Shown piece after piece: positions 6,703-26,575 of a stretch of 64,000 bases of DNA (position 1 is its first letter; every line of letters starts with the position of its first letter). This stretch comes from Parapedobacter composti. GTDB lineage: Bacteria > Bacteroidota > Bacteroidia > Sphingobacteriales > Sphingobacteriaceae. Where the stretch lies: NCBI RefSeq assembly GCF_900112315.1, contig NZ_FOLL01000013.1:62001-126000 (forward strand), in the 5' to 3' direction. The position numbers and the translations under genes are program-made. The notes under the pieces are model-generated. The model was not told the origin of the DNA. It made no database searches and saw only the letters and a program-made list of their open reading frames with translations.

Positions 6703-7641
6703 TTACCTAAAAAACCATCCGGGTAACAGCTTCTCTGCGCCCTTTCTTACACGCCCTGCCTCTTCTATAGGTATCCAGCGGTAAGGCCAGCGCAGGCGAG
6801 TTCCGATAGCTGCCCAATTTCCCGCGGCAGCCAATAGTTTATCCAATGCCGGATTACTATAGCCCTGTTCTGCAAACGGAACGATATACTGGGAAAAAAA
6901 TGTTTGTATGCGTTGTTCGATAGACAACGCTTCGTTTATATCTGTCTGCATCAACTGCCACCAATGCTGCGCCGCCCGTGGATTGATACACGCGACATTG
7001 GAATAAGCCCCGCTCGCAACTCCTTGATGCACGCCGGTAGCCAGATGGTGCCCCGGCACAAAAATAGCCACCTTATCCGATACAGGCCTCATCCGCCGGT
7101 ACCAATCGTCATCGCCGTCTAGCAGCTTGATACTGATCAGGCTGGGTATCTCCGCCGCTAACGCAGCGTATTCTTCGGGCTGCAATACTTTTTTCGCGTG
7201 AGGCGGATTATAGAGCACCAGGGGAACAGGATCGGCTATTGCCGCCACCCGTTTCAGAAAAACCAACGCTTCATCGCTGTTTACCTTTACCCAATCCGGA
7301 AGAATAACCTGATACGCATCAGGATCGAGGTGTTTGGTCCGCCCGATACGTTCAATGGTAGTTGCAGGAACGGGATGCGACGCCCCAATCTGGAACAACA
7401 CACCGCTTCGCCTGCACTTCTCCGCCAATAGCTGGCTCACCCGGTCAAACTCATCCTCGGTCTGTACATGGAACTCTCCCGCTGTGCCGTTGGAATAGAT
7501 CCCATCAACCCCCGCTGCGGCCAAGGCATCAAGTTCATCCGATAACCTGTCAAAATCAATGGATTCATTTTCATTGATAGGCAACAACAATGTCCCCCAG
7601 TTTCCCCGGCAACGCGGGGCCGTTAACCTTTCACGCTCCAT
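6703..7641 (-). CDS. DHDPS/NAL-family class I aldolase, second copy in the sialic acid operon
   Basis: A (beta/alpha)8 aldolase of the dihydrodipicolinate synthase / N-acetylneuraminate lyase superfamily, 312 residues. A GTAGE motif is at 52-56, the catalytic Tyr is Tyr144 in LVLYNPP and the Schiff-base Lys is Lys172 in SIKLLDGDDDW. The ATG at 7641 is chosen over a TTG at 7668 because it starts one base after the MFS stop codon, suggesting translational coupling. It differs clearly from the nanA product four genes upstream: it lacks the YxIPALTG and GSTY signatures of sialic acid lyases. It may act on another 2-keto-3-deoxy acid or an unusual nonulosonate. Last gene of the unit. Confidence 0.85.
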   Translation of the reverse strand: MERERLTAPRCRGNWGTLLLPINENESIDFDRLSDELDALAAAGVDGIYSNGTAGEFHVQTEDEFDRVSQLLAEKCRRSGVLFQIGASHPVPATTIERIGRTKHLDPDAYQVILPDWVKVNSDEALVFLKRVAAIADPVPLVLYNPPHAKKVLQPEEYAALAAEIPSLISIKLLDGDDDWYRRMRPVSDKVAIFVPGHHLATGVHQGVASGAYSNVACINPRAAQHWWQLMQTDINEALSIEQRIQTFFSQYIVPFAEQGYSNPALDKLLAAAGNWAAIGTRLRWPYRWIPIEEAGRVRKGAEKLLPGWFFR

Positions 7642-7642
7642 A

Positions 7643-8890
7643 TCAGGATTCCCGCTTAACTTTAACAAAGATCAAGGACCACGTAGCCAACAGCAACAGG
7701 CCTGCCGCTATCATGTAAATAATAGCCAAATCGATCTGGGCATCCTTAAGGGCACCCCCTACATAAACCATCAGTCCGCCCACAATGGTACTCAAGAAAT
7801 TTAACACCCCGTATGCCGTAGCGGCATAACGGCTGTCAGCCACCTGCCTGACCACCGGCATGAGGTTGGCGTCGCTGAATCCCCGTGCCATACCGAAGAA
7901 GAACAGTGCAACCACGGCTATCAGGAAAAGTGACGTCCACGACATCAGCATCAAAAACGGCGCTCCCACGGTAAACCCGATGAGGATAACCAAAATACGG
8001 CTCCGCGGATTGACCTTAGACCAACGGTCGGCCCAGATGCCGCCCAGCAATACGCCGATAAACGAACCTATCTGCGGATACAACGTGGCCGAGATTCCGG
8101 CCTCCCCCAGTCCCAGGGCAAAACGGTCTTTCAAGAACGTTGGCAGCCAAGCGTAAACCAGCCAGTTGGCTACCCCTAATACCACGAAGTAGAATAACAC
8201 TATCAAGTAAGAGCGTTCGTTGACCAGCGACCGGACAGACGCCGAAAAACTGACCTGTTGAGACGGCTTTTCCTCCCTGACTGTCTCCGAGTCGGGTTCG
8301 GCCTTTCTATCGCGGAGGATAAAGAGCAGTGCCACCGCGTATAAACAGCCAAAGAAACCGAATACATGGAAACCATAACGCCACCCCCAGAGTTCAGCGA
8401 TGTAACCGCCTACACCACCCAGCGCCAATCCGGTATATAATCCGCTGAAGTGTATACCCGTGGCTAATGAACGAGTCTTGCCGCGGTGATAGTCGGTGAT
8501 CAAAGCAAGTCCCGCGGGAATATAGAACGCCTCGCTTATCCCCATGACAATACGGGCGGCTATCATTTCTTCGAAAGATGAAACCCAGCCGGTCCAGACG
8601 GTAGCGGCCGACCACACCATTACACTGAGAATGATCACATTCCGCCGGCTGTACTTGTCGGCCAGAAACCCGCCGAACGGACTGAAAATCCCGTATGACC
8701 AAAGGAACACCGATGTCAGCAAACCAAACTGGGCGTCGTCCAGCGTAAACTCGGCGACAATCGGATCGCGCATCGAGGTGATAAGAATCCGATCCAGGTA
8801 ATTTAAAAATGCGATAAGCCAAAGCGCACCCACCAACAGCCATGGGTACCATGTTTTTGCAGTAATTCCTTTGCTAGCTAACGTATTCAT
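7643..8890 (-). CDS. MFS transporter, probable sialic acid (or related acid sugar) importer
   Basis: The 415-residue product has about twelve hydrophobic segments and the MFS loop 2-3 signature (GGFLADKYSRRNVI), with a repeat of it in the second half (GGIWADRWSK). It resembles anion:cation symporters of the hexuronate/NanT type. It overlaps the stop of the mutarotase gene by 4 nt (ATGA) and is followed directly by an aldolase gene. Bacteroides nan operons also carry an MFS NanT beside the lyase, so inner-membrane import of N-acetylneuraminate is the likely role. That specificity rests on context. Galacturonate or another acid sugar cannot be excluded. Confidence 0.85.
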   Translation of the reverse strand: MNTLASKGITAKTWYPWLLVGALWLIAFLNYLDRILITSMRDPIVAEFTLDDAQFGLLTSVFLWSYGIFSPFGGFLADKYSRRNVIILSVMVWSAATVWTGWVSSFEEMIAARIVMGISEAFYIPAGLALITDYHRGKTRSLATGIHFSGLYTGLALGGVGGYIAELWGWRYGFHVFGFFGCLYAVALLFILRDRKAEPDSETVREEKPSQQVSFSASVRSLVNERSYLIVLFYFVVLGVANWLVYAWLPTFLKDRFALGLGEAGISATLYPQIGSFIGVLLGGIWADRWSKVNPRSRILVILIGFTVGAPFLMLMSWTSLFLIAVVALFFFGMARGFSDANLMPVVRQVADSRYAATAYGVLNFLSTIVGGLMVYVGGALKDAQIDLAIIYMIAAGLLLLATWSLIFVKVKRES

Positions 8891-10005
8891 TTCGTAGATG
8901 GTTTTACAGCCAACACCCTGTTTGTCCGCACGCCTGGGCGTGCCTCACCCGTCGGCAAGATCACCTCACCGTCCCAAACTACCAGCGGCGTGGTGACCGG
9001 TGCCCAAGTGCTGGCATTCGGATTGTTTTCAGCATCAGGCTGCTTATCAGTCAACACCGATCCGGCTTTGCGCCATCCGGCAGTTTCTTGGTCGTAAACC
9101 ACTATCGCGGTATTGAACCCGGGATGCTCATCCTTCAGTATGCTGTTCTGATCGGCGAGACTTCCGTCGTCGCCGCCAAAAACAAGCAACTGTCCGCCTT
9201 CTGCATGGGCAGGTGATGGTGCGGCTGCCACCGCATGTGGCAGATCGCTGATTTTTTCCCATCCGCTATCCGGAAGGTAACGGAAGGCATCAGTCAGGTA
9301 CTTGCGGCGGGCCAGTGAATCGCCCGTAGGTACTTCCAATAATACACCGCTCAAGAGGTAGAAAGCACCATCCATGGCCCCTGCCACACTCAGCATACGG
9401 GGATCGCCAGGCCAGGGATCCAGCTTCTTCCATTGCCTTTCTGCAGCCGGTTTTGACAAATCCAACGACCAAAAGGAGTGCTTACACGACTGGGCCTGCG
9501 GAGCATCCAACCCGCCGGCAATATACACTACATCGCCAATAAGGGCACCCGAAGCATATGCATTCGGCTCGGGTAGGTCGGGTAGTGTATCCGTAACCAG
9601 CTGGTCATCCGCGTAACGCAGTAGATAAGCATCACGGTAATGCTCCTGCTGATCGGCCCCGCCCAGCATAACCAATTGGTCCCGCCAAGTGAGCGATACA
9701 CCATATCCCATCGGCTTAGGCAACCTTCCGATTTCCTTCCATTGTGCAGCGCCCTTTTCCAATGCGAAAATCCGGTCGCTCCAGTACTTTGTTCCGCCAG
9801 ACCAGGGCCGTGTATTTTCAGGGAAATTTGATCCGCCCGCTACCAGCAAGTGGCCGCCGCTGATTCCGGAAAAAGCACCAGCAAATCCCACGGGATCGGG
9901 CAATTGCGGCAGTTGCCGCCAAGCAAAGTCCAACTCACCTTCCTGGTGGCAGGCCTGCGTCATGATGGTTAATGTCATTAATAAAAAAGGATTTCTGCTC
10001 ATCAT
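8887..10005 (-). CDS. nanM: N-acetylneuraminate epimerase (sialate mutarotase), kelch propeller
   Basis: NanM converts alpha-sialic acid released by sialidases to the beta anomer in the periplasm, speeding uptake. The 372-residue length matches E. coli NanM (about 368). A signal peptide with a possible lipobox (MTQAC, Cys19) is followed by kelch blades marked by paired glycines: LLVAGGSNFPE, LVMLGGADQQ, VYIAGGLDAPQ, LLVFGGDDGS and VILPTGEARPGVRTN. The NFP after the first GG and the closing GEARPG are typical of this family. It overlaps nanA by 4 nt upstream and the MFS gene by 4 nt downstream, so the three are probably translated together. Confidence 0.9.
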   Translation of the reverse strand: MMSRNPFLLMTLTIMTQACHQEGELDFAWRQLPQLPDPVGFAGAFSGISGGHLLVAGGSNFPENTRPWSGGTKYWSDRIFALEKGAAQWKEIGRLPKPMGYGVSLTWRDQLVMLGGADQQEHYRDAYLLRYADDQLVTDTLPDLPEPNAYASGALIGDVVYIAGGLDAPQAQSCKHSFWSLDLSKPAAERQWKKLDPWPGDPRMLSVAGAMDGAFYLLSGVLLEVPTGDSLARRKYLTDAFRYLPDSGWEKISDLPHAVAAAPSPAHAEGGQLLVFGGDDGSLADQNSILKDEHPGFNTAIVVYDQETAGWRKAGSVLTDKQPDAENNPNASTWAPVTTPLVVWDGEVILPTGEARPGVRTNRVLAVKPSTK

Positions 10006-10937
10006 ACTCTCTTTTCAACGGAACCGCGGCTGTCTTCCAATAATTCAAAAAAAGAAATAGCGTCCAATTCATTTTTCAGTTTGTCGGTCTGCTCCACGCT
10101 CAATGGCTCCAACGGCAGGCGGCACCGGCCCAGCTCGTAACCCAGCATACCCATGATGGCCCGCTGCGCCGGTATCGGCGGATACTTTACAAAGGCCCTG
10201 ATCATGTCTACCAGTCTCAGCTGCAACCGCTGCGCCGTGGCCATATCACAAGCATTGTAAGCCTTAATCACCTCCTTATACAGGGGAGCAGCAAACGTAT
10301 ATGTACTCCCAATGGCACCTTTTGCACCCACGGCCAGTGCGCTGAGCAGTAATTCATCATAGCCGAACAACACGTCGAATTTACCATCGCCGTAGTTCAA
10401 GCACGCTTGGTATTCGTGAAGGGTGGATGCCGTGTACTTAATACCTGCCAAGTTCGGGATTTGACTTTCGCCAAGCCGCAGAAACTCCACCATATCCATG
10501 CCAACCCCTGTCAATGCAGGTATGTGATAGTAGTAAAACGGTGTATTAGGGGCCGCAGAAGCGATGGCCGCCATACACGCTACCAGGTTGCCCACCGATC
10601 CTGGTTTGAAATAAAACCCCGCAACGGCAGAAATTGCGTCAGCTCCAATCTGTTCCGCATGGAATGCCAGCCTACGGGCATCGGCAACCGATGTGTGGCC
10701 CACATGCACCAGCACCAACAGCCGTCCTTGGGCAGCCTTTATGTAAGCCTCGGCCACAGCCATCCGTTCCTCAACCGTCAGGTTCGGCCCCTCACCATTG
10801 GTACCACAGATAAATACCCCCTTTAATCCATCATCTACAAGTTTGTCGACCAATGTTGGTATTCCATTGAAGTCAACCGAACCATCTGCGTGAAAAGTTG
10901 AAAACGTGGCTGCTATAAGCCCATTAATTTTTGCCAT
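10002..10937 (-). CDS. nanA: N-acetylneuraminate lyase
   Basis: Class I aldolase that cleaves N-acetylneuraminate to ManNAc and pyruvate in the cytoplasm. The 311-residue product shows GTNGEG at 45-50, the catalytic Tyr137 in YYYHIPALTG (E. coli NanA also uses Tyr137, in a YNIPALSG context), the Schiff-base Lys167 in GIKYTAST and the AIGSTY motif of sialic acid lyases rather than dihydrodipicolinate synthases. It starts 32 nt after the sulfatase fragment and overlaps nanM by 4 nt. Surrounding sialidases, mutarotase and transporter support the assignment. No ManNAc 2-epimerase or kinase follows, so later steps must be encoded elsewhere. Confidence 0.93.
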   Translation of the reverse strand: MAKINGLIAATFSTFHADGSVDFNGIPTLVDKLVDDGLKGVFICGTNGEGPNLTVEERMAVAEAYIKAAQGRLLVLVHVGHTSVADARRLAFHAEQIGADAISAVAGFYFKPGSVGNLVACMAAIASAAPNTPFYYYHIPALTGVGMDMVEFLRLGESQIPNLAGIKYTASTLHEYQACLNYGDGKFDVLFGYDELLLSALAVGAKGAIGSTYTFAAPLYKEVIKAYNACDMATAQRLQLRLVDMIRAFVKYPPIPAQRAIMGMLGYELGRCRLPLEPLSVEQTDKLKNELDAISFFELLEDSRGSVEKRV

Positions 10938-10969: not shown

Positions 10970-11602
10970 TTATCTTTCGGTAGCTGCTGCCTTATATTCT
11001 GTAGATTTTACCTGTGGGGGTTGTTCCATATCTGCAACATCGGCAGCATTCGTTGCAGGAATATGCGTTTTCAGTTCGGCTTTGACACCAGCGTAACGTT
11101 CATCCTCGGCCAGGTTTTCCCATTCATTTTCATCTACGGTATGATCATAAAGCTCTTCCGTGCCATCCACATATTGGATATAACGCCAGCGATCCGTACG
11201 TACCGCGTGGTTTCCAGCCATATACGTCATCAGTGCCAGCGGAAAATCTGTAGCCTCGGCATCGGGCAGTGCCCTACGCCAGTCCGATTTATTTCCGTAG
11301 ATTCCCGTGCTGTGTGGACGCGTTCCGGTTAGCAGCGATACCCGTGAGGGATTACAAGCGGGCGACGAGCAATAAGCGTGTGTAAAAAAGGCTCCCTTAG
11401 CCGCCAATCGTTCCAGATGCGGGGTACGTATGGGGTTATCGGCATTGAAAAGCGTTATCCAGTCGTTCAGGTCGTCTACCGCAATGAACAGCACATTCGG
11501 TTTGCCAGACTGGCGGTCACTGCAACCCATCACGGTCAAGACTATAAAGACTGCCCCAAAAAGGCAGCGTTGTATTTTCGCCATTCGAGTATGATGTGCC
11601 AT
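10970..11602 (-). pseudogene. Internally deleted S1-type sulfatase (iduronate-2-sulfatase-like), probably inactive
   Basis: The 210-residue ORF contains only the two ends of a sulfatase that should be about 480 residues. The N-terminal part has a lipobox (LTVMGC, Cys27), the Asp-Asp metal site (FIAVDDLNDW) and the formylglycine motif CNPSR with Cys83. At about residue 115 (near base 11257) it passes directly into a C-terminal segment (MAGNHAVRTDRWRYIQY, GTEELYDH) that normally lies some 270 residues later. The missing part carries the DHG metal ligands and most substrate contacts. The frame is intact. It sits 3 nt from the sialidase gene before it and 32 nt from nanA, so the deletion leaves the operon readable. 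It may be a relic or a small binding protein. Confidence 0.75.
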
Positions 11603-11605
11603 GTG

Positions 11606-12709
11606 TTATAATAGATCTTCCAAGATTACCCGCTTCAAGGCGAGCGACCACCCGTCTTTGAGATCGGTCTTAGTTTCGAACAAACAGTAAACTGTGCCGT
11701 CTGGCGCAACGGCAATATCGGAATAACCTGAAATGCCCTCGTGAATCACCTGCTTCACTCCCCAAGTCCTACCGCCGTCGTCGCTCAATTTCAACGTCAG
11801 ATTCTGCCGGGGATGCTTGGTAATATGTTCGCTATCTGGATTCAGGAAGAGCAAGTAATCTTTACCCCCGTATTTGGCCGAAATAATGCTCGACATACAA
11901 ATCGGCTCGAACAGTTCTTCATCATAGGCGGGTACAGTCCACCCTGAAATCCCATTTTTGCTGTAACTTACCCCCTTGCGCCTTTTGTCCGATTCATTTC
12001 GGATGCTCAACATTACCCGGCCGTCGGGCAGTTGCACGGCCATGGTTTCACTGGGGTTTTTAAAGCCCTCAGCATCGGGAACCATCGCCCCACGCCGCCA
12101 GGTCTTACCGTTATCATCACTGTAAATGGTGGCGATACGGGAAGGCCGATGACTGCGGTGCGGTTTGAGCTTGTCCGAGTCAGCCAGCCATACCGGCACC
12201 AGAAGCCGGCCGTTCTTCAACTGTATGCTATGTCCCGGTCCGGGGGCAAGCACCTTCCAATCGTATTCTTTTCTGAACGCCTCGAAAGCTGGGGTTATGT
12301 CCACCGGAGGCGCCCATGTAAGGCCATCGTCAGTCGACCGCGTGTAGTAGGCATAAGCATAATCGCGCTGGTATAAGAGGTGAATGGTGCCATCTTTCCC
12401 AACGATTGGCACCGGATTATCCGTCGGTTTACCGCCGGCCCGCGGTGCTACCACCTGAACAGCAGCCCATGTATTGCCGCCGTCCTCGCTCCTGCGGAGT
12501 AACAAATCCATGTCTGCCCAATCGCTTGCGCTCTCTATCCTGCCGGCGGCAAAAGCAAGGAGCGTCCCTTTCTGGGTTATCACCAAAGCCGGTATACGGG
12601 TAGACGAATATTCGCCCGGCACCGGATCAAAAACCCGGACAGCCTCCTGCCCTATTACTAATGTGCTAATCGTTGAAAACAGTAAATACGTCAAGAAAAA
12701 CCTCATCAT
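11606..12709 (-). CDS. GH33 exo-alpha-sialidase (secreted)
   Basis: Six-bladed BNR sialidase of 367 residues with a signal peptide ending near LVIGQ. By eye all catalytic positions are present: Arg38 in STRIPAL, Asp63, Glu221 in PSETMAVQL, Arg237, Arg301 and Tyr329 in GYSDI. Four Asp boxes are visible (SEDGGNTW, STDDGLTW, SDDNGKTW, SDDGGRTW). The ATG at 12709 is chosen because it overlaps the stop of the preceding sialidase gene (ATGA) and starts the signal peptide. The frame is open further upstream to 12736. Likely releases terminal sialic acid in the periplasm or outside the cell. Its role beside two other GH33 enzymes may be a different linkage. Confidence 0.92.
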   Translation of the reverse strand: MMRFFLTYLLFSTISTLVIGQEAVRVFDPVPGEYSSTRIPALVITQKGTLLAFAAGRIESASDWADMDLLLRRSEDGGNTWAAVQVVAPRAGGKPTDNPVPIVGKDGTIHLLYQRDYAYAYYTRSTDDGLTWAPPVDITPAFEAFRKEYDWKVLAPGPGHSIQLKNGRLLVPVWLADSDKLKPHRSHRPSRIATIYSDDNGKTWRRGAMVPDAEGFKNPSETMAVQLPDGRVMLSIRNESDKRRKGVSYSKNGISGWTVPAYDEELFEPICMSSIISAKYGGKDYLLFLNPDSEHITKHPRQNLTLKLSDDGGRTWGVKQVIHEGISGYSDIAVAPDGTVYCLFETKTDLKDGWSLALKRVILEDLL

Positions 12710-13992
12710 TCCTGCCCCCCATCTTCTTTTATCCATGCTAAGTTAAATTTATGAAAATCAATTGAATGCCGTCTGTTCATAGCCGTTCCGGCAGTGGGGC
12801 CACTATTATGTTCCACCAATGCCCCAATGTGGCCATCCGCTGTGGTAATCAGGCTTGAATATCCACCGAACCCTTGTTCACAGGTTTCAGAAGGAGCCAA
12901 ATCGGGATACAACTGCCGTGATGTAGACCACGTTTCGCCGTCGTCATCGCTGATCCTGACGGTCATCCGGCACCGGAAAGGCATCCCGTCTCCTTCATCA
13001 TTGGCCGCGTTCAGGAAAACAATACGGTTAGGCGACCAGGAATACCGAAGAATTGACGCCTGGCAGCGTGGATCAGGTAAATTCGCATCGGCCGTAAAGG
13101 CAGAGAAGCCGCCTGAAATGGTTCCTCTGGATACGTAACGGGCACGGTTGCTTGTCCACCTTGATAACACCGGACGGTCGTTACGCATCAGTAAACCACT
13201 GGCTAACTCGACTACGGTACCTTCAAACGTACCCTCGGGGATAACCTGGTATTTCCAGGTCAGCCCGTTATCATCACTGTAGATATTCCGTCCACCTGCC
13301 GGAATGATAAGGCGCCCGGCGTCAGGACCATGCTTAACCTGTATACCGATGCCTGGACCCATGGCGTCCCAGGTATAACCCGGCGGCAGTAGTACCTCCG
13401 TACGATCAACCGGCGTGCTCCAGGTCTCACCGTGGTCATCGCTGTGACTGGTAAACACCCGCCGCTGCCCCCAGCTGTCTATCGCCGCGTAATCCCTGCC
13501 CCCGAAACTGCCACCATGTTGACTGTGGCTATCGCTGTTCCATGAAAGAAAAAGCCATATCCTACCGGTATCCTCATCAGTCACTGCCGTAGGATTACCC
13601 CATGTGCCTTCTCCCTCATCCACCACTATACGCAGCGCTGACCAATGTTCTCCGTTGTCGTGGGATATTTTATAAACGAGGTCAATATCACCATAGTCCA
13701 GACTGGTATGCTTCCGCCCCTCCGCAAATGCAATAAGATTACCGTTGACGGCCCGTGCCAGACAAGGTATGCGGTAAGAATGGTAGCCTTCCTGTCCTTG
13801 GGTAAATAACCGTATTATTTCCAGCTCGGGGGCATCCTCCCCCTCTCCATCCGACACGTCGACTTGCGGGCGTTCAAACGGTGGTCCGCCAACCATACCG
13901 GTGTCCAATTCACTGCATCCAGACAAGCTGCCGGCACACCCGATACTTATCCATACACATGTTATCCAACTATTTATCATCATTTGTTTCAT
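12706..13992 (-). CDS. GH33 exo-alpha-sialidase, lipoprotein
   Basis: The 428-residue product has a lipobox (GSLSGC, Cys26), an acidic linker (about 42-58) and a sialidase propeller. Catalytic positions look complete: Arg74 in SYRIP, Asp99, Glu257 in TFEGTVVEL, Arg270, Arg340 and Tyr378 in GYSSL. Asp boxes include SHDNGEHW, SDDHGETW, SDDNGLTW and SDDDGETW. The linker and lipid anchor suggest display at the outer membrane. It overlaps the next sialidase gene by 4 nt and follows the sialidase-fold lipoprotein by 23 nt. Sequence divergence from its neighbour suggests separate specificities rather than a recent duplication. Confidence 0.92.
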   Translation of the reverse strand: MKQMMINSWITCVWISIGCAGSLSGCSELDTGMVGGPPFERPQVDVSDGEGEDAPELEIIRLFTQGQEGYHSYRIPCLARAVNGNLIAFAEGRKHTSLDYGDIDLVYKISHDNGEHWSALRIVVDEGEGTWGNPTAVTDEDTGRIWLFLSWNSDSHSQHGGSFGGRDYAAIDSWGQRRVFTSHSDDHGETWSTPVDRTEVLLPPGYTWDAMGPGIGIQVKHGPDAGRLIIPAGGRNIYSDDNGLTWKYQVIPEGTFEGTVVELASGLLMRNDRPVLSRWTSNRARYVSRGTISGGFSAFTADANLPDPRCQASILRYSWSPNRIVFLNAANDEGDGMPFRCRMTVRISDDDGETWSTSRQLYPDLAPSETCEQGFGGYSSLITTADGHIGALVEHNSGPTAGTAMNRRHSIDFHKFNLAWIKEDGGQE

Positions 13993-14015: not shown

Positions 14016-15965
14016 TTATTTCCTATAAACCACAATACCTTCCCTGGGACTTTCAATGCCCCCTTCACCTACGATAATCACGGTTCCATCGGCCAAGGCG
14101 ACCGCATCCATCGCGCCAATCGGAGCGGCATAAGTGCGATAAGCCATCCGGTTGAAGAGCGGCGCTCCCTGTCCAAATGACTGCCCTCCGTCGGTGCTTG
14201 AAAATATCATTGGTGTTACGCCATAAGCCGGACCGTTATAGGTCTGACTGTCCGATTCGCGGTTCGTCGGGGTAATCAGGTGTACCGATCCATCTCCGGA
14301 TTTCACCGCAGCAGCGTGAAACATGTGCCCGAAATCGCCCGTCCCCACAACGGCGCTGATGTTGACCGGAGCAGTCCACGTTTCCCCGCCGTCGCTGCTA
14401 TAAGCGACCAACCGGTTCCTTGGGGTCGTATTGGTGTGGCCCAGCACCATCATCAATCGGGAATCGTCAAGCTCAATGACGGCGCCGGACAGCCGGTTAT
14501 TCCCGGCAATCGGCTGAGACAGACGCCATGACTGCCCTCCGTCGTCGGAAAGCGCGGCCCTGACCTGTGTACCACCATAAACAAGCGGCATTACCAGCCG
14601 ATTCCTGTAAGCCGCTGAACGCAGTTCGATACCATGTCCCGGTCCGCTTCTTACGTATCCAGTATTCGTCACCAATTGATCGGTAATCTCTACCGGAGCC
14701 GACCAGGTTTGCCCGTTATCGGCCGACACTACCTGGTAAACCCGTTGCTGGCTTGCATCAAATACGTAGCTGTTGTTCTGAACATGTCCCGGCAACGCAC
14801 TGTAGTGCAGTACAATGCGCCCTTCGCTCGTGGTCACCACCTGCGGAAAAGCATACGTCTGGTCGGACCCCTGCCCCGCAATCACAGCGATGGACTCATC
14901 CCAAGATGTTCCCTGCGATGACGACCGGCGCATGATGATATCGGTATCGCCGGCAGGCATGGTTTGCTGTGCAATACGTTCGGCAGCGGAACGGGGATTG
15001 GAGCGCCCTTCAGCAAAAAGAAGCAAATCACCATTCGCCGCCAGGGCCAGCGCCGGCGCCTGTATCCGGTTATACCCCTGTTCATATTCGTGCATGGCAT
15101 AGTCAACCGTAAACGCATCGGAGCTCTCGATGTAATAATCATGTACTGTAATAAAGTTACGCCACGGTCTGATCTGTGGCGTGAAGTAAAAGAGGTCGCC
15201 CGGAAGCTTGAACTGAAAACAAAGCGTCCCGTTCACCTTCACATAGAACAGCGCATCGTGGATGACTACCTCAATATCCGCCGGAATACCCGGCACAATG
15301 ACCTCATTGACTGTTGGCCATCCCTGATTAGGATCAACCGATGCCGTGGTGCCATACAGGTCGACGAAAAACATGGGCGCGATAGCCGACGCACCATCCA
15401 TTCCCAGCACAAAGTTCTGCCCGGTCTCCCAGTTCACTCCCAAAAAGAGCCCAAAGGCTGTACCCGCGAAGGTACCTACCGTCAGCCGAGTATACATGTA
15501 GAAACTCTTACCCGGACCTACCGGCACAAAATATTTACTATGCACCCAATTGAACTGAAAGCTATTGGGATTGCCGCCGAAATGGTCGGCATTCGTAATG
15601 GGATAATAGTTACGGTGGGGAATCAGCCGCATACCGTTCGGTTCTTTCACCCAAGACAGCGTGTCGCCCGCCGCAAAAAAGTCAGTATACCCCTTGAATA
15701 GTATCTTATCGTAGTTCGGCTCCCCGTTTCGCATCAGCCAAACCCCCGCCTCGCGGTTCTCGTCGAAGGGAAAAGGCAGGCTGTCCGGCATCCGCTGTTC
15801 TTCCTCAAACGGTCCGGGAAAACCGAAGTGCTGCTCTTTGTAGCACCCCGAAAACAGCGTAACCAGCGCCAAGAAAAAAGACCATACACCGAGGAGCGTA
15901 CGCCCATGGGCCGTATATTTATCTTTCCGGCCGCTTAATATTTCCATGTTCATTTGTTTGTTCAT
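14016..15965 (-). CDS. Sialidase-fold lipoprotein with N-terminal beta-sandwich and lost catalytic residues
   Basis: 649 residues: lipobox (LFSGC, Cys41), an N-terminal beta-rich, lectin-like domain (about 75-290) and a BNR propeller (about 295-649) with Asp boxes such as SADNGQTW, SDDGGQSW, SSDGGETW and STDGGQSF. Compared by eye with the three neighbouring GH33 proteins, the first Arg (Arg300, in RIQAP instead of RIP) and an Asp region remain. The catalytic Glu aligns with Ser493, the second Arg with Gly509, the third Arg with Gly582 and the nucleophile Tyr with Ala618. It is thus probably not a standard sialidase. The gene follows susD directly, the usual place for a surface glycan-binding protein. 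A GAAAGG ribosome site precedes the ATG at 15965. Confidence 0.8.
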   Translation of the reverse strand: MNKQMNMEILSGRKDKYTAHGRTLLGVWSFFLALVTLFSGCYKEQHFGFPGPFEEEQRMPDSLPFPFDENREAGVWLMRNGEPNYDKILFKGYTDFFAAGDTLSWVKEPNGMRLIPHRNYYPITNADHFGGNPNSFQFNWVHSKYFVPVGPGKSFYMYTRLTVGTFAGTAFGLFLGVNWETGQNFVLGMDGASAIAPMFFVDLYGTTASVDPNQGWPTVNEVIVPGIPADIEVVIHDALFYVKVNGTLCFQFKLPGDLFYFTPQIRPWRNFITVHDYYIESSDAFTVDYAMHEYEQGYNRIQAPALALAANGDLLLFAEGRSNPRSAAERIAQQTMPAGDTDIIMRRSSSQGTSWDESIAVIAGQGSDQTYAFPQVVTTSEGRIVLHYSALPGHVQNNSYVFDASQQRVYQVVSADNGQTWSAPVEITDQLVTNTGYVRSGPGHGIELRSAAYRNRLVMPLVYGGTQVRAALSDDGGQSWRLSQPIAGNNRLSGAVIELDDSRLMMVLGHTNTTPRNRLVAYSSDGGETWTAPVNISAVVGTGDFGHMFHAAAVKSGDGSVHLITPTNRESDSQTYNGPAYGVTPMIFSSTDGGQSFGQGAPLFNRMAYRTYAAPIGAMDAVALADGTVIIVGEGGIESPREGIVVYRK

Positions 15966-15991: not shown

Positions 15992-17509
15992 TTACTTCCA
16001 GAGGAGCGGATCTACAGGAATATACCAGTTTTGTTCAAACCTTAGCTTCTCTTCTACCTGTTCGCGCATTCCCGCAGGATACTTGGATGCTACCTTCGCC
16101 GCCAGTTTATTCTCACCCGTGAGTTTAGACCACAGCATCAGATCATACCACCGTTTGCCTTCAAAAGCAAATTCCCTTGCCCGTTCCCGAAACAGCTGTT
16201 CCATCATAAATTCGCGGTTGGTGTAGTCGGTCTCCTGTGGCAACAGCGGAAGCAATCCTCTCGCCTCCCGAATCCGGTTCAGGAAATTAAAGGCCGAAGA
16301 GTAGTCATTCAGCATCAAATCTGCCAGTGCTTTGTACAAGTACGCATCGGCACTCCGGTACAGATGCCAGCTGGCATCGCTCTGGTAGGGTCGGCGCATG
16401 GATTGCACGTTATCCGTGCCGATATATTTCCAGATGACGGTATCCTGTCCAAAAACCTTATAGCTGAAACTCGTGCGGATATCGCCCCCTTCATGGGAAA
16501 AGACCGTATTGATCACGTGTGACACCGGTTTCAAATGATAGCGTCCCCCATCAGCCGCAAACGGCGACGTAAACTCCTGAAGGCGGTTGGTCTCAAAACT
16601 CCTATCGTATTGGTATCCCAGGAGAAACAATGAATGTTGGCCGGCATATGAACCGGTAAACTGGTTTATCCAGTTACCTGACGTTCCCAAACCGTGGTTA
16701 TTGTTCAAAACAGGCGAATTGGCAAAGGCCGAAGCCGATTGGTATTCACCGAGCCATAGTGCAAGCTCCGTTGCAAACGTGGCTGCCATCGGTTGCGACA
16801 CCCGCCCGTACCGCTCTTGTGCAGGCAAACTATTCCGGTTCCATTGGTAGTTAAGCGGCAGGATGCCCAGCACCGTAAGTACATCATTGTAAATCATTAA
16901 CCACACCTCCTGCTTATTTTCCGGAAAACGGTATAAACCGCGAATCTCGTGGACAGACAGGGCCATGGTGGATCGGGATACAGTATCACCTTGTTCGTTC
17001 ACGAAACGGATTTCCTCGGCATAGTCCGACCGGATAATCGGGAAACGATCAAACGTTCTTACCAACAGGTAATAACAATAAGCCCGTAGCAGCAACGCTT
17101 CACCGTAATAAGCTCCCGCATCTCGGTCAAGTATTTTATCGTCTACCTCCATAACATCGTATACGCGCTCCAACTGACGGTTACACCGGGCAATGGTCTG
17201 GTATATCCCTGAATAGTCGGTATACGGGTTGTTCACGGTCACATTATTCAACACGAACTCGTTAATATACGGATCCGGCTCGGCTTGTCCCGTCGTTACC
17301 ATATCGGCCCGGGCGTCGCCCCAAAGCAAAAATTTGTGCACCTCTTTTGTCAGCGACTCGTACATTCCAATGGCGGCCGCATTCAGGTCTTCCCGGTTTT
17401 TATAGAATTCATCTTCCTTTACCGCATTATACGGATCAACGTCAAAGAAATCTGAACACCCTGACAGGGCAAAGGCAATCCACAATAATCGTTTCATAGC
17501 TGATTTCAT
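15992..17509 (-). CDS. SusD/RagB-family glycan-binding lipoprotein
   Basis: 505 residues with lipobox ALSGC near residue 18, then FFDVDPYNAVKEDEFYKN, the usual start of SusD proteins (D-x-D-P and an early helix), and a C-terminal SusD region ending in KRWYDLMLW and WYIPVDPLLW. SusD proteins cap the SusC channel on the cell surface and help deliver glycans. It follows its SusC partner by 16 nt. This is the second SusCD pair of the sialoglycan unit. An early ATG at residue 5 could be the start, which does not affect the reading. Confidence 0.93.
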   Translation of the reverse strand: MKSAMKRLLWIAFALSGCSDFFDVDPYNAVKEDEFYKNREDLNAAAIGMYESLTKEVHKFLLWGDARADMVTTGQAEPDPYINEFVLNNVTVNNPYTDYSGIYQTIARCNRQLERVYDVMEVDDKILDRDAGAYYGEALLLRAYCYYLLVRTFDRFPIIRSDYAEEIRFVNEQGDTVSRSTMALSVHEIRGLYRFPENKQEVWLMIYNDVLTVLGILPLNYQWNRNSLPAQERYGRVSQPMAATFATELALWLGEYQSASAFANSPVLNNNHGLGTSGNWINQFTGSYAGQHSLFLLGYQYDRSFETNRLQEFTSPFAADGGRYHLKPVSHVINTVFSHEGGDIRTSFSYKVFGQDTVIWKYIGTDNVQSMRRPYQSDASWHLYRSADAYLYKALADLMLNDYSSAFNFLNRIREARGLLPLLPQETDYTNREFMMEQLFRERAREFAFEGKRWYDLMLWSKLTGENKLAAKVASKYPAGMREQVEEKLRFEQNWYIPVDPLLWK

Positions 17510-17525
17510 GCTAACATAACTAAGG

Positions 17526-20336
17526 TTAAAGCGACAATTTAATCCCCATCACAAACGTTTTGGGCAGCGGCGAAGCGCCAAAATCTATTCCCCGCATCAA
17601 CGGATCGCTGAAGGAGACCACTTCCGGATCCATTCCGCTGTAGTTGGAAACCGTCAGCAGATTTTCACCGGTAACAAACAGTTTCATTCCTCTCAAGAAA
17701 CGCAGGTGCGAACGCGTATTGATATCATAGCTTACCGTTACGTACTTCAATCGCATATATCCGCCATCTTCTACCCATAGGTCAGACGCAGCGCCGTTTG
17801 CCGAAGGATCACCGTACGCAGCCCGGCTTAGCCCATTGCCTTGCTCGGTAGCCGATTTCCACCTACCGGCCACGTTTGGAGATTGGTTTGAATAATCGCT
17901 CATCATATGCATACGCTGCCTGAAACTGTTATAGATGTCCTGCCCGTATGCATAAGAAAACTGCGCGCTTACGGAGAGCCGCTGCCATCCCACAGTGGTG
18001 CCGAACCCGCCGAACACCTTGGGAAGGGCCGAACCGATGACCTGTTTATCCAGTTCATTGATTTTGGAGTCGCCGTTCAGGTCGTCCATGATGTAATCAC
18101 CGGGTCTATAGTTGGTGCCATCAGCTTTTTGCAGGTAAACATCTTCCGCAGTGCCGAACACCCCCAATACACGGTATCCATAGAAACTCGCCATGGGCTG
18201 TCCGGGTAAAGCAACCCCGCCTACACTTCCCAGTGTTTTGATAATATTGCCGTTGCCCAGTGATTCCACCCGGGTATTCAACGTTGACAGGTTGCCGAAC
18301 ACCGACCAAGTAAGCCGATCGGCATCGGACAGGATATTCACATTCAGCGCCAGTTCAAGACCATGGGAATACAGGACACCGCGGTTCTCGAACTGAGGCC
18401 CCAACCCAATCTCTATCGGAACGGCTTTGGACGTGATGAGGTCATGCGTACGCTTGAAATAGTATCCCGCATCCAAGGTGGCCCGGCTGCGGAACAAGTC
18501 TACAACGAGCCCCCCATCTACAGTATTGGTGATTTCAGGCCCGATACCGGGATTGGCGACATTGCCAAGGTAAGTACCGCCATAGCCGAAGTAACCAACG
18601 GGGTAATAGAGGTTATAATGATAGAACCCCCGGACATCATGATTGCCGCTAAGCCCCCAAGATGCACGCAACCGCGCTTGATGGGGAGTGTTCCGTTGCA
18701 ACAGATCCACAGCAGCACTTACTCCCGGATATACGTTCCACCGTCCGCGCGGCCCAAAGTTGGATGAACCTTCCAAGCTCACACTGGCGGAAAGGGTGGC
18801 TCTTTCCAAAATCCGGACGTCACCGTTTAGGTAAAACCGCATCAGGTTCGACTGGAACTTTGTGTTGGAGGCACTGTCCACCACGCCCTGCTCCAGCGTT
18901 TCGTAGTCATCCGTACCGGCATTGACCTTCCGGGCATAAACAGCTTTTTCCTCAAATAGCTCCACCCAAGCACCTGCACGGCCGGTATAGCGCGCCCAAT
19001 CGCCCAGCGTACCGTTCCGATCCAGATGCGTATTCCACAGCAACGTAAACTCGCTGGACGACCGTTGCACATTCTGGCGGATGCGGTGCCTATCGTTTAC
19101 GATACCCAGCGATGGCCGGTATTGCTTTTCTTTCAGGTTAAAATAGTTCACCGCCATGACCGACGTTAATGACGTGCGCTCACCTGCCTCCCATGTTGCA
19201 CTGATGGAACCGTCTACCCGGTTCTCCTCATTATCATTAGCCATGTTGTTTGCAAGCGCCCAGGGGTTACTTTTTCCAAGTACATCCACATCAGCGAGCA
19301 GGTTGGTCAACTGTTGCTCATCATTGTAAGCGTAGCGCCCCATAAACGGGGCTTTCGTGGCAGCAACGTAAATGGGATGCACATCCCAGTTACTTCCCTG
19401 TTCGAGATAACCCGCCATACTGTTCGCATACGAAAGGTTATTGGTAATTTTGAACTTCTGCGAGAGCTGGTAATCCAGGTTGAAGCGCATGCTGATGCGC
19501 TGCATATCAGTACCCACCAATGTCCCTTGCTTATCCGTATACCCAAGGCTGAACAGATAGTTTGCGTCGGCGTCGCCGCCTTTCAGTTTCAGGTGATAAT
19601 CATTGAACGAAGCCGTTCTGGTAATCATGTCTACCCAGTCTGTATGATAGGCGTATTGCGGCAATGCTGCATCGAATAAGGGGTTGGCAGCCAACTCGGT
19701 CTCAGGGACACCATTCTCGCGCATATAGTCCCAAAGGTAGCGTTTGAAGCCGTCTGCGCCCATGCGGTCTATGCGATATCCCGCACGGGACACCCCGTAA
19801 TTGGCGATGAAATCGATCTGTGTGCCGCCGAACTCCCCGCGTTCGGTAACCACGTAAACTGCGCCGTTGGCTCCTCTTCCCCCAATTGCAGCCAGCTCTT
19901 CCCCTCCAGCGGCCACGTGGATGGCAGCGATGTCATGCGGGTTGACAAAACCAAAGCGGGTGGGTTCAAACGTGGAAAGGAACGAAGGCAACGCCCGGTT
20001 ATACCGTACAGGCACGCCATCTACGAATATCTGCGGTGTAGCATTCAGATTGATGCTGTGTATACCCCTAATCATCAGCTGAGGCGCCGAACCGACCACC
20101 CCCGACTCCGTGACATGAACCCTTGCGTTGCCCGGAAGCAATTCCGCAAAAGAAACCGCATCGCTCTGAACGGGCATACGCACCTGCGTGGCAGCAGCCA
20201 TTGCGCTATCCCGGAGCACAGCCGCATCCCCGGTATCCACAATCTGTCCTGAAGCCGGATGCGCGGCATGGCCCAACACCGCCAATGCAACCAAACCGCT
20301 ATATAAATATTTCATTGAGATATCCATTTCATGCAT
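17526..20336 (-). CDS. SusC/RagA-family TonB-dependent transporter, short form without N-terminal extension domain
   Basis: 936 residues, shorter than its paralogues here (1076 and 1000). After the signal peptide (MKYLYSGLVALAVLGHAAHP) the carboxypeptidase-regulatory-like domain usual in SusC is absent, and the plug starts almost at once (LMIRGIHSINLNATPQIFVDGVPV, GGRGANGAVYVVT). The rest is the 22-strand barrel, ending in a typical aromatic-rich strand (FVMGIKLSL). ATG 20336 is reported. The in-frame ATG at 20315 gives a tighter signal peptide and may be the true start. The gene begins 5 nt after the FAS1 gene stop and is followed by susD. Likely imports sialosides or sialic acid. Confidence 0.92.
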   Translation of the reverse strand: MHEMDISMKYLYSGLVALAVLGHAAHPASGQIVDTGDAAVLRDSAMAAATQVRMPVQSDAVSFAELLPGNARVHVTESGVVGSAPQLMIRGIHSINLNATPQIFVDGVPVRYNRALPSFLSTFEPTRFGFVNPHDIAAIHVAAGGEELAAIGGRGANGAVYVVTERGEFGGTQIDFIANYGVSRAGYRIDRMGADGFKRYLWDYMRENGVPETELAANPLFDAALPQYAYHTDWVDMITRTASFNDYHLKLKGGDADANYLFSLGYTDKQGTLVGTDMQRISMRFNLDYQLSQKFKITNNLSYANSMAGYLEQGSNWDVHPIYVAATKAPFMGRYAYNDEQQLTNLLADVDVLGKSNPWALANNMANDNEENRVDGSISATWEAGERTSLTSVMAVNYFNLKEKQYRPSLGIVNDRHRIRQNVQRSSSEFTLLWNTHLDRNGTLGDWARYTGRAGAWVELFEEKAVYARKVNAGTDDYETLEQGVVDSASNTKFQSNLMRFYLNGDVRILERATLSASVSLEGSSNFGPRGRWNVYPGVSAAVDLLQRNTPHQARLRASWGLSGNHDVRGFYHYNLYYPVGYFGYGGTYLGNVANPGIGPEITNTVDGGLVVDLFRSRATLDAGYYFKRTHDLITSKAVPIEIGLGPQFENRGVLYSHGLELALNVNILSDADRLTWSVFGNLSTLNTRVESLGNGNIIKTLGSVGGVALPGQPMASFYGYRVLGVFGTAEDVYLQKADGTNYRPGDYIMDDLNGDSKINELDKQVIGSALPKVFGGFGTTVGWQRLSVSAQFSYAYGQDIYNSFRQRMHMMSDYSNQSPNVAGRWKSATEQGNGLSRAAYGDPSANGAASDLWVEDGGYMRLKYVTVSYDINTRSHLRFLRGMKLFVTGENLLTVSNYSGMDPEVVSFSDPLMRGIDFGASPLPKTFVMGIKLSL

Positions 20337-20341
20337 TCATT

Positions 20342-21775
20342 TTAGTTTATCGGAATCAGCTCCAAGATGTCCATCAGTAAATCACAGCAGTAGCTGGGGT
20401 TCGGATTGGAGCCAAACCCGGTAAAGGCAAAATACAAGGTCACATCACCCCGCTCCTCTACGTTAATATCGCCGCAGTAATTATACACGAGGTAATCCCA
20501 CTCCTCAAAAGTCCCATCCTGCCTGCTCATGACAATATCTTCCTTCACAATCTCGTCGTTGTAGATAGTGAGATACCTTCCCCGCGCTGCACCGGCGCGG
20601 TGCATGATGCGAATCCGGTAGTTCCCTGTAGGTACATCGGGCACCGTCATCCAGAAGTAGTCGCCCACCTGGGTGGCGTCGAACTGGGTGATCCGGAATT
20701 CCTGGTTCTGGTGATAACTGCGGGTGCCGGTATTGAGGAGGATACGTGCAGGAGGCTGGGTAAATACATTCTGCGCACCGTAAGGACTTCCCGGGGGATA
20801 CAGATTAAGGCGGATGGTGGTAGGCCGGGCCTCCACGATTTCCAGCAGCGTGTCCAGTGTATGATAAATGCCGTTGCTGCAAACTTTATCAATACCGAAA
20901 TCCCGCGACTGGTTGAAGCGATAGTCGAAATTCACGTAGTATTGTCCAAACTCATCGACCTGGAAACTCAGCGCCTCGTCCGGATACAGCGAGTAAAACC
21001 GCTGCGCCGTCAACAGGTTCAGAAAATAGCCCGAATCGGGAATGATGTGATACTTGAGCCAATCCTCAGTGTTTTCAATCGCGTCTATCGAAAAACCGCT
21101 GCGCTGCAACGCATCGTCACTTTCAATCAATAACGTCACCGTACTATCTTTGAGGTAATCGTCATATCCGTGCGCCTCCATCAGCCCCAGCATGATGCTG
21201 TATTTCCCCGACGCTTTCAGGGCATCATAAATACTCTTCGTCGGCGGCAACAGCACATCGTCCACGATATTCACATAGCCGTTCGTCAGTTCGATGTTAT
21301 ACTCCTTGATCGTTGCCCTGTTGTTCAGCCGGATAGCCGCGTAAGATTCGCTGATATCAGCCAAGATATACTTTTCACGGTAAACCGTGGGATAAGGTAA
21401 CGGCCCATGGGCAAACTCGTTCGTGTTAACCTTACGGTCCAATAGATGATACCGGAAATAGTCGAGCCAGAATTCAGGAGTTGCATCAGCGATGGATCGA
21501 ATAGCCTGCCCCTCTTCGCTCAACTCCGTAAACAGCCGCTGGAAGGCCTCATTGCTGGGGACGAACACCGTGTAAGCTCCCGCCGTTTTCAACAGATTAC
21601 GCTGCCCCACGGCGTCAACCAGTTGCCGGAAAACACTCAAGTCTTCGCGACTATCTATGTAGTCCATAATCTGCAACTGATCCGTGCTGTCGTATCGCGC
21701 GCCGGACAGTTCCTTTTCGCAACCCTGCATGCCTACCAAAAGGCATAATGCCGATAATATATATAAGCGTATCAT
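20342..21775 (-). CDS. FAS1 (fasciclin) domain lipoprotein, second copy
   Basis: 477 residues with lipobox GMQGC near residue 19. Two FAS1-like domains can be traced: the first (about 35-190) contains LLKTAGAYTVFVPSNEAF and GYVNIVDDVLLPP, the second (about 185-315) is weaker (YSIMLGLMEAHGYDDYL, CSNGIYHTLDTLL). A C-terminal beta-rich region (about 320-477) follows. FAS1 domains mediate adhesion or ligand binding in other organisms. In Bacteroidota many unstudied FAS1 lipoproteins sit beside SusCD. Here it lies between one SusD (12 nt upstream) and the next SusC (5 nt downstream), pointing to an accessory surface role in uptake. Confidence 0.85.
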   Translation of the reverse strand: MIRLYILSALCLLVGMQGCEKELSGARYDSTDQLQIMDYIDSREDLSVFRQLVDAVGQRNLLKTAGAYTVFVPSNEAFQRLFTELSEEGQAIRSIADATPEFWLDYFRYHLLDRKVNTNEFAHGPLPYPTVYREKYILADISESYAAIRLNNRATIKEYNIELTNGYVNIVDDVLLPPTKSIYDALKASGKYSIMLGLMEAHGYDDYLKDSTVTLLIESDDALQRSGFSIDAIENTEDWLKYHIIPDSGYFLNLLTAQRFYSLYPDEALSFQVDEFGQYYVNFDYRFNQSRDFGIDKVCSNGIYHTLDTLLEIVEARPTTIRLNLYPPGSPYGAQNVFTQPPARILLNTGTRSYHQNQEFRITQFDATQVGDYFWMTVPDVPTGNYRIRIMHRAGAARGRYLTIYNDEIVKEDIVMSRQDGTFEEWDYLVYNYCGDINVEERGDVTLYFAFTGFGSNPNPSYCCDLLMDILELIPIN

Positions 21776-21787
21776 GGTTAAATGCTT

Positions 21788-23329
21788 TTATTTGTTTCTA
21801 TAAAACGGCTTCTGGTCCAATTGTGGATTGTTCTCTACCTCCGTGAGGTGATACGGGAGGAACCAGCTTTCCTTGTCCAGCAGCCTGGCGCGAATAACCT
21901 GGTATGACCTTCCCATCGAGTTATTCGTGGCTGACTTTTCCAGCAGCACCCCTTCGTACCCCGGTCGGCGGCCGATGCGCACCGCAGCGAACCATTCTTT
22001 ACCCTCAAAACCGAGTTCAAACTCCCGCTCCATCAGCAACCTTGCCATAAACTCGGTTCCTTCGCCGCTCTCACCCGGCAATAACGGAGGAATGTTGCAA
22101 CGTTCGCGAACGATGTTAATGAGTTGCTCGGCCTCGGGATACCGGTTAAGCATGGCATAGGCTTCAGCTTTCATAAATAGCACTTCCCTATACCGGTAGA
22201 AGATGTAATTCGCCGTACGGGCATTACCCGGCCGGTAGGACACCTGGTAAGGAGCTGTCCCGATAAACTTATAAATTTCTGCTGCGGCTCCGTAACCGTT
22301 GCTGATACCGCTGGCACCCAGCATGGCAAACGACCTAAGCCGGATGGTATCGGAGGTCACATATCCCGGCAATACCGGAGGGTACAATATCTCCTGGGCA
22401 TTGACAGAAAGATTGGCCGAATTGGCAAGGTAACGCTCCCCGTTGGTATCGCCCCTGGAAGCATATGCAAACCAGTTGTACAATGGCGATACCGGCCCCA
22501 GCTGGCTATACTGATATTCAAAAATACTTTCGTTGGAATTACCCGGATTGAAGATCGTATACCACGCCAGGGGCCCCACCAGCGAACCGGCATATTGCGC
22601 CTCCAACTGCTCACACAGGGTTATGCAGCCCGCATAATCATTACGCCAGAGCTTCACGTCGGCCCATAATGCCCGTACCGCATTCTTGGTTATCCGGCCA
22701 AACCTGTTACTCACATTATCAAAGCCCTCCGGAGCGTCATCCAGTGCCCGCTGAAGATCGCTTTCAATGAAATCGAGCACAGCTTCTTCCGAAGACGGCG
22801 AAGTATCGAATTTCTGATTATCAGATTCATAAGGCTCATTAATGATAGGCACCTCTTTGAATGCCCGCACGAGGTAAAAGTAGTTCAACGCCCGCAATGC
22901 ATGGGCCTCCCCCATCATCGACCGGAGCTCGGCCGGGCTGAATGTATTATCGCGATCCAAAGCCGAAGGCGCGTTCTTGATGAACGAATTGATCCAGGTA
23001 ATCGAGCGGTATACCGAAGCCCAGGAAAGCAATCCGTTGGTTGGATAGATATCATGCGACATGAACTGTCCGTATGAATTGTTGAATGCGTCGCCGGTTC
23101 CCGGCGCATACGCGCTCGAACGGACGTCACCCCAAACATGATAGCTGTTCAGGTTACTGTGCAGGGACGTGTATAATCCGATGAGGGAAGAATACACCTG
23201 ATCCCGGTTCTGCCAGAATTCATCGTGCACCAGGTTGTCAGGCACATCAACGTCCAGGATACTGTCGCATGAGGTGATTAGCACCATGCACAGCCCGAGG
23301 ATACCGTATTTTATTTTCGCTGTCATCAT
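21788..23329 (-). CDS. SusD/RagB-family glycan-binding lipoprotein
   Basis: 513 residues with lipobox LITSC near residue 20, followed by DSILDVDVPDNLVHDEFWQN. The TPR-like helical core includes ALRALNYFYLVRAFKEVPI, and the C-terminal SusD signature region includes EREFELGFEGKEWFAAVRIGR. It follows the larger SusC by 15 nt and precedes the second FAS1 gene by 12 nt. With that SusC it should form a surface glycan import complex. Low similarity to the other SusD of this unit suggests that the two complexes take different parts of the glycan or different glycans. Confidence 0.93.
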   Translation of the reverse strand: MMTAKIKYGILGLCMVLITSCDSILDVDVPDNLVHDEFWQNRDQVYSSLIGLYTSLHSNLNSYHVWGDVRSSAYAPGTGDAFNNSYGQFMSHDIYPTNGLLSWASVYRSITWINSFIKNAPSALDRDNTFSPAELRSMMGEAHALRALNYFYLVRAFKEVPIINEPYESDNQKFDTSPSSEEAVLDFIESDLQRALDDAPEGFDNVSNRFGRITKNAVRALWADVKLWRNDYAGCITLCEQLEAQYAGSLVGPLAWYTIFNPGNSNESIFEYQYSQLGPVSPLYNWFAYASRGDTNGERYLANSANLSVNAQEILYPPVLPGYVTSDTIRLRSFAMLGASGISNGYGAAAEIYKFIGTAPYQVSYRPGNARTANYIFYRYREVLFMKAEAYAMLNRYPEAEQLINIVRERCNIPPLLPGESGEGTEFMARLLMEREFELGFEGKEWFAAVRIGRRPGYEGVLLEKSATNNSMGRSYQVIRARLLDKESWFLPYHLTEVENNPQLDQKPFYRNK

Positions 23330-26300: not shown

Positions 26301-26575
26301 AGCCGGAATTCCTGACTTTGGTAACCTACATTCGAAAACCGGATTTTGACGGCGTCCGGATGCCGGGAAAGCTCGAAAATCCCTTCTTTATTCGTCCGCC
26401 CCCCGCTTAATATCAGATTGTTGGCATTCACCAACGTCACCGACACATCCGAAAGCGGCACCCCCACTGCTTCCCCATAAACCCTGCCCCTGAGCACCTC
26501 CTGCGCGAAGGCACCGTTGAGCAAGCCTAAAAGCAGCATGACCGATACATTCAGTTTAATACATTTACGCTTCAT
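23345..26575 (-). CDS. SusC/RagA-family TonB-dependent transporter
   Basis: 1076 residues from the ATG at 26575 (MKRKCIKLNVSVMLLLGL), which begins a clean signal peptide and lies 16 nt after the FAS1 gene stop. The frame extends upstream without meaning. Order of domains: carboxypeptidase-regulatory-like beta-sandwich (about 25-105), plug (about 110-240, with ASIRIRGISSISGINDPLW and ALYGSRGANGVIVIKTKRG), then the long barrel ending in ARQYTLGLRATF. This is a full-length SusC, unlike the second copy at 17526. It is paired with the SusD that follows after 15 nt. Confidence 0.94.
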   Translation of the reverse strand: MKRKCIKLNVSVMLLLGLLNGAFAQEVLRGRVYGEAVGVPLSDVSVTLVNANNLILSGGRTNKEGIFELSRHPDAVKIRFSNVGYQSQEFRLQSGQHPVFEVVLVSDQQQLEVVEITGQRQQQKADLGFLTIDRRELSSSIASVDLTGVENMPVASVDQLLQGMAPGLQVVAASGDPGASASIRIRGISSISGINDPLWIVDGSEVIGSNYQVESISDFGFSPIGDLDPSDIESIDILKDASATALYGSRGANGVIVIKTKRGKRGRPQLTFNSRFTLTEVPRTIPMLSGDEQRIYYIERWTGGADDGTAHPQLRGDLTRDDAWMFNNNTDWVDAITRTGVYQQYNTALSGGGERINYYWGLGYTNQYGTTKGTGYDRFNTRFNLNYTVSDKLRVSADLTYTNSLTDKRGQRHPVTNGNQEINPVLFSRETPAYFPIYSKNGLNYFVNRNAGVSSHSRYNPLALIDYSTYLSRANRFMASTSVDYTILENLEFRSQFSADFRESADEYFLPGYATDALPGEDLYNAGHQTEGYQLMINNNNRLIWSALRQDNHRLTFTGVFNLNIDRDNSMEVTYFNGSSPQLRAADASAIIAGARGKFGTRKYLGMFLQGHYAMHDRYFLTVTGKTEGDSRYGSDNPYSIFPAIGAAWDMARESFLTDVKWVNAIKPRFAFGITGNLPNVLNLYDIAYSTGIGYMGETYIYPSKFANDNIREERTTEYNVGIDWSLFDNRLSGQFDYYTRTTNDLLLQERLSSTLGYENQYTNFGRVRNSGLELGITAVILKGSETRVRWKSFFNIATNKNRLLSLPDQFNEDAFSATVGGFSSRLYPGDVIGGFYAYRALGVYATDADAILRAPDGSIIYEADGVTPKYMRFGSNTGHQFKGGDMIYADINGDGIINELDRVQIGDANPLFFGGWNNTLNYRNWVLTANFQYQYGNDVINGTRIQMEQMSFSHNQSRSILARWRRQGDITDIPRAQPDNAWNRAASSRWVEDASYLRLKTVSLTYNADRTFTDRLGLGIRQLSVFVTGYNLYTWTNYLGVDPEVPITGSVLLFGVDRATTAPARQYTLGLRATF

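Follow-up and report, generated by a model that had tools for sequence, protein, structure and literature searches.

Why does a sialic acid locus keep, directly behind a susD gene, a sialidase-like protein whose active site appears to be gone? The question is raised by one gene in the window, the whole 64,000-nucleotide stretch of Parapedobacter composti DNA analysed here. A preliminary description had reported this gene as a sialidase-fold lipoprotein, and its ORF, strand, coordinates, lipobox (Cys41) and start 26 bp past susD (SusD2) all proved correct; a GH33 gene follows 23 bp past its end. We refer to the protein as SIA, for pseudo-sialidase. Its parts are as follows.

14016-15965, minus strand: SIA, pseudo-sialidase lipoprotein; ORF of 649 aa, BNR_2 match at E=1.5e-22, best Foldseek matches to GH33 structures
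15843-15965, minus strand: SIA signal peptide and lipobox, residues 1-41, with Cys41; mature start C-Y-K-E-Q-H
15102-15833, minus strand: SIA N-terminal domain, residues 45-288; 75% mean column identity in 8 orthologues
14019-15101, minus strand: SIA sialidase-type propeller, residues 289-649, from Pfam, alignment and Foldseek; Asp boxes kept

Pfam, alignment and Foldseek agreed on a propeller with Asp boxes, the latter retained as originally described. The AlphaFold2 model was good in the propeller core only (mean pLDDT 54.8), and GH33 structures were its top Foldseek matches through the propeller. Among the best matches by both sequence and fold were PG0352 of P. gingivalis and the M. viridifaciens sialidase 1eur. 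Pfam and Foldseek thus led to sialidase propellers and not to the TIM-barrel fold of GH18.

Like surface glycan-binding proteins of polysaccharide utilization loci (PULs), SIA is a lipoprotein, judged by its conserved lipobox Cys41. Cys41, Glu44 and His46 were invariant in an 8-sequence alignment, and the mature N-terminus read C-Y-x-E-(Q/E)-H in 18/18 orthologues. This predicted mature start is similar to the signal for surface export, C-X-K-(D/E)2-X (PMC5080379), which three orthologues match exactly with C-Y-K-E-E-H; the SIA of the window, C-Y-K-E-Q-H, has one acidic residue there.

The N-terminal domain said to have been added to the propeller is present (about residues 45-288) and is the most conserved part of the protein. 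Its assignment as a beta-sandwich is less secure: modelled alone, the domain was mostly strand, but the model was unreliable (pLDDT 30.5). Pfam gave no convincing match to it (best E 0.11, for one member), sequence comparison with the PDB gave none, and no relatives were found in viral contigs. All ORFs in which the domain turned up were about 633-706 aa long, the size of SIA.

The active site was examined by aligning 18 SIA orthologues with 14 GH33 enzymes encoded in the same loci, the motifs being largely ungapped. The acid/base Asp position was assigned by alignment to PG0352, in which Asp219 has this role and of which the D219A mutant is PDB 8t26 (PMC10553830).

15060-15062, minus strand: Gln302 at GH33 Arg1 (RIP motif); Q in 18/18 SIA, R in 14/14 GH33
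14958-14960, minus strand: Met336 at the acid/base Asp position (PG0352 Asp219); M/Y/F/Q/K/R/L/I and never D in 18 orthologues
14487-14489, minus strand: Ser493 at the catalytic Glu position; S/Y/N/K/Q/T/A in SIA, E in 14/14 GH33
14439-14441, minus strand: Gly509 at the Arg2 position; G/S in SIA, R in 14/14 GH33
14220-14222, minus strand: Gly582 at the Arg3 position; G/S/P/A in SIA, R in 14/14 GH33
14112-14114, minus strand: Ala618 at the nucleophile Tyr position; A/F/H/N/L/K in SIA, Y in 14/14 GH33

Arg1, Glu, Arg2, Arg3 and Tyr were restored in 0/18 SIA orthologues and kept in 14/14 GH33s of the same loci. SIA therefore has neither the arginine triad (Q302, G509 and G582; Arg at none of them, 0/18) nor the Tyr/Glu nucleophile pair (A618 and S493; 0/18), and an acid/base Asp is absent in 18/18, with M336 standing against PG0352 D219. 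The loop that carries this Asp is replaced by one about 10 residues longer. In the nearest GH33s from outside these loci, the residues were retained wherever the alignment spans the sites.

These alignments bore out the four substitutions noticed at the outset (Ser493, Gly509, Gly582 and Ala618), and the family alignment proposed as their check found none of the catalytic residues restored in 18 orthologues. One detail was wrong: the first Arg had been thought to remain in RIQAP, but ungapped alignment of the RIP motif puts Gln302 at Arg1, and RIQAP Arg300, two residues off the RIP Arg, is R/K/F/L in orthologues. The original observation is nonetheless confirmed by sequence comparison, and in a stronger form than first described, as the acid/base Asp and Arg1 are lost too.

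Positions that are invariant in GH33 and mostly kept in SIA are the Asp-box Ser, Asp, Gly and Trp, together with Arg321 and Glu634. The latter two lie near the site and are invariant, and Arg321 aligns with the O4-contacting Arg213 of PG0352. Since most other GH33-invariant positions are kept, the loss singles out the active site. A protein that is still a sialidase, its active site misaligned here or its residues supplied from elsewhere, would fit the kept fold, Asp boxes, Arg321 and Glu634, but every catalytic position is lost in 18/18 orthologues across largely ungapped motifs, making this highly improbable. Loss of sialidase catalysis is a well-supported prediction. The Pfam BNR match is strong though the active site is gone, which warns against annotating such proteins as sialidases.

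Loss of active-site residues could also mark a gene in decay. Full-length SIA orthologues were found in 8 of about 301 genomes of the family, in 15/400 genomes of the order, and in three genomes of one genus from another family of the class; P. tibetensis carries the only relative found in named genomes (77% identical). SIA sequences formed one group with 100 SH-aLRT support. Compared with the P. tibetensis orthologue, SIA gave pN 0.153 and pS 0.739, with comparable values for neighbour genes; we give no dN/dS because pS is near saturation. By this comparison the gene is under purifying selection. A decaying pseudogene, to which we assign next to no probability, is ruled out by the intact ORF in 18 genomes and by conservation, and new invariant residues, low pN relative to pS and fixed synteny also speak against it.

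The synteny extends over seven genes, of which SIA is the last.

26592-28538, minus strand: FAS1a, fasciclin-domain lipoprotein, first gene of the cassette; PF02469 at E=1.7e-31, and synteny
23345-26575, minus strand: SusC1, TonB-dependent transporter; TIGR04056 at full length
21788-23329, minus strand: SusD1, lipoprotein; NanU is the closest NCBIfam model, with 67 bits, far short of its cut-off
20342-21775, minus strand: FAS1b, fasciclin-domain lipoprotein; PF02469; in the same 8 genomes as SIA
17526-20336, minus strand: SusC2, TonB-dependent transporter; TIGR04056 positions 111-981, without the N-terminal ~110 model positions
15992-17509, minus strand: SusD2, lipoprotein; PF07980 and PF14322; NanU is the closest NCBIfam model, with 65 bits, far short of its cut-off

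The order FAS1a-SusC1-SusD1-FAS1b-SusC2-SusD2-SIA was complete in 16/18 loci, and in the other two (L093 and L094) every gene retrieved fits it; for part of the loci, SusC1 was identified from its position and size. SIA directly followed SusD2 in 18/18 loci, the slot of a PUL surface glycan-binding protein. FAS1b orthologues (58-100%) occurred in exactly the 8 SIA-bearing genomes of the family, the next match being partial and at 34%. This co-occurrence, together with the fixed synteny, upholds the placement of SIA in the surface glycan-binding protein slot. Literature searches found no papers on FAS1/fasciclin proteins as SusCD partners, and a promoter and terminator scan gave sites no more numerous than in shuffles. 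SusC2 (17526-20336) is also without the TIGR04057 signature present in SusC1, and its orthologues are likewise short (912-939 aa).

The genes around the cassette indicate its likely substrate.

33595-34299, minus strand: GntR regulator; best model NanR
28576-30225, minus strand: GH33c sialidase, probably periplasmic; active-site residues intact; has a signal peptide but no lipobox
12706-13992, minus strand: GH33a sialidase, a likely lipoprotein that retains the Arg triad, Glu and Tyr
11606-12736, minus strand: GH33b sialidase; active-site residues intact
10002-10937, minus strand: NanA, N-acetylneuraminate lyase-like, from model matches
8887-10005, minus strand: NanM, N-acetylneuraminate epimerase-like, from model matches
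7643-8890, minus strand: MFS transporter, present in most SIA loci

With three GH33s, NanA-like and NanM-like proteins, an MFS carrier and a NanR-like regulator nearby, this is a sialic acid locus, and a GH33 gene lay near SIA in every locus examined. Orthologues of GH33c had a signal peptide without lipobox (13/13) and several GH33a proteins have a lipobox, suggesting surface capture followed by partly periplasmic desialylation. Three further genes of the window deserve mention. A second, divergent aldolase of the DHDPS/NanA superfamily (6703-7668) stands at the end of the catabolic genes. Between NanA and GH33b, a 210-aa sulfatase ORF (10970-11602) joins an N-terminal sulfatase piece to a C-terminal SGSH_C piece; it is without most of the middle found in sulfatases of 481-501 aa and looks like an in-frame internal deletion or a remnant. 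Upstream of GH33c lies a lipoprotein in which three PKD domains accompany a ConA-like Laminin_G_3 domain (30265-31770), of which another genome (G008) has a 68% identical copy.

What, then, does SIA do? Because a dead-looking protein is locked to a seven-gene uptake cassette in relatives, it most likely captures or docks sugar rather than cutting it. Our preferred reading, held with moderate confidence, is that SIA is an accessory lipoprotein of the outer membrane or surface that does not hydrolyse and serves a tandem SusCD importer of sialoglycans. Hydrolysis would have been lost from a GH33-type propeller in an ancestor of the present orthologues, with the protein then retained as a non-catalytic accessory. 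Lipidated at Cys41 and probably facing outward, SIA may join SusC2/SusD2 and the FAS1 lipoproteins in a complex akin to the levan and dextran utilisomes, in which PUL surface lipoproteins form a stable complex with SusCD (PMC7618045). Its conserved N-terminal domain, the rebuilt propeller face, or both would capture or position sialylated glycans, or dock partners. SusCD would import the sugar. Neu5Ac would be released by the sialidases with intact sites, GH33a probably on the cell surface and GH33c probably in the periplasm, and would presumably pass to NanM, NanA and the MFS carrier. The preliminary description had suggested a sialidase turned into a sialoglycan receptor. Loss of catalysis stood the comparison of 18 orthologues; that SIA is specifically a sialoglycan receptor is a conjecture, and one made harder by the loss of all three arginines. 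Binding of sialic acid in the old pocket is doubtful and not expected, as the carboxylate-holding arginine triad is gone, and any glycan contact would therefore use the N-terminal domain or the rebuilt face.

The same arginine loss is compatible with a pure scaffold, in which SIA touches no glycan and its propeller and N-terminal domain join the two SusCD units, the FAS1 lipoproteins and GH33a. The perfect co-occurrence with FAS1b, the strong conservation of the N-terminal domain and the loss of all ligand-holding arginines are in line with this arrangement, and there is a precedent in BT1284, a dead-glycosidase PUL protein for which glycan binding was not measurable (PMC11180146). Against it stands the number of polar and aromatic residues that never vary, which points to retention of a site for a ligand or a partner, two options that sequence alone does not separate. 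We consider a scaffold rather unlikely.

Catalytically impaired GH18-like proteins of this kind are the closest precedent for an accessory SIA. They come from N-glycan PULs of Bacteroidales, examples being BT1284 and a B. faecium GH18-like protein (PMC11180146). Both they and SIA pair an N-terminal domain without a catalytic role (a beta-sandwich in the BT1284 type) with a glycosidase fold whose catalysis is impaired, and sit in a PUL beside an active enzyme; the BT1284 type differs in its TIM barrel and its glycan, and the text available describes no tandem SusCD-FAS1 cassette (PMC11180146). SGBP-lev of utilisomes is, like SIA, a lipoprotein encoded with SusCD in a PUL, but in place of a GH propeller it has Ig-like domains along with a binding domain of its own (PMC7618045). 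GH33 exo-alpha-sialidases such as PG0352 and 1eur share the propeller and Asp boxes; SIA differs from them in being without the Arg triad, Asp, Glu and Tyr and in its N-terminal domain, which has no known sequence relatives. Inactive trans-sialidases of Trypanosoma cruzi, sialidase-superfamily proteins without activity, are described as lectin-like (PMC5504189). They and SIA, whose inactivity is predicted, belong to the same superfamily. The T. cruzi proteins are inactive mainly through a single Tyr342His change, with the rest of the pocket kept. SIA is unlike them in having lost the whole pocket, with all positions changed. NanO/NanU is a SusCD-type sialic acid importer whose NanU binds free Neu5Ac and not sialyllactose (PMC3969230). 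Both SusDs of the cassette match the NanU model best, far below cut-off. The NanO/NanU system is not known to include a tandem SusCD, a FAS1 protein or a pseudo-sialidase.

There are precedents for dead glycosidases retained in glycan-uptake loci. We came across no account of a sialidase-family member among them without a single catalytic residue left, or of a cassette fixed as two SusCD pairs, two FAS1 lipoproteins and one pseudo-enzyme, and literature searches on pseudo-sialidases in PULs found nothing on point. In SIA, the recruitment of an enzyme fold to serve as part of a transporter can be put to the test.

The propeller itself has acquired residues of its own. Q302, H510, H547, R569, D572, Y609 and Y612 were invariant in 18/18 orthologues. 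New invariant residues relative to GH33 are H510 (adjoining Arg2), H547, R569, D572 and D620 (two after Tyr), as well as R330 and Q333 inside the ~10-residue insert at the Asp loop. The central face may have been remodelled to form a new site, catalytic or binding, giving new chemistry or new sialoglycan recognition within a two-transporter FAS1-SusCD machine; we put this forward tentatively, as unlikely. Candidate residues for such a site are Q302, R330, Q333, H510, H547, R569, D572, Y612 and D620, with R321 and E634 kept. The enzyme of different mechanism envisaged at the outset would be a pocket rebuilt for another sialoglycan reaction, with a sialate ester, for instance, or a non-sialic sugar as its target. 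The new invariant polar residues agree with it, but nothing positive supports it: SIA matches no known alternative active site, and the residues invariant in SIA specifically show no enrichment, along the sequence, around the old catalytic positions (4/23 against 3.5 expected, P=0.48). Sialate acetylesterase and alpha-galactosidase-type functions are, moreover, separately encoded in other loci, and we judge such an enzyme decidedly unlikely.

Beyond the window, SIA loci additionally encode these sialate acetylesterases, the alpha-galactosidase-type enzyme and a NAGPA-domain protein. In locus L082 (2978-4444), a lipoprotein that combines IPT/TIG domains with a NAGPA (phosphodiester glycosidase) domain at its C-terminus adjoins a sialate acetylesterase-type gene, and locus L084 (2316-3839) has a similar ORF.
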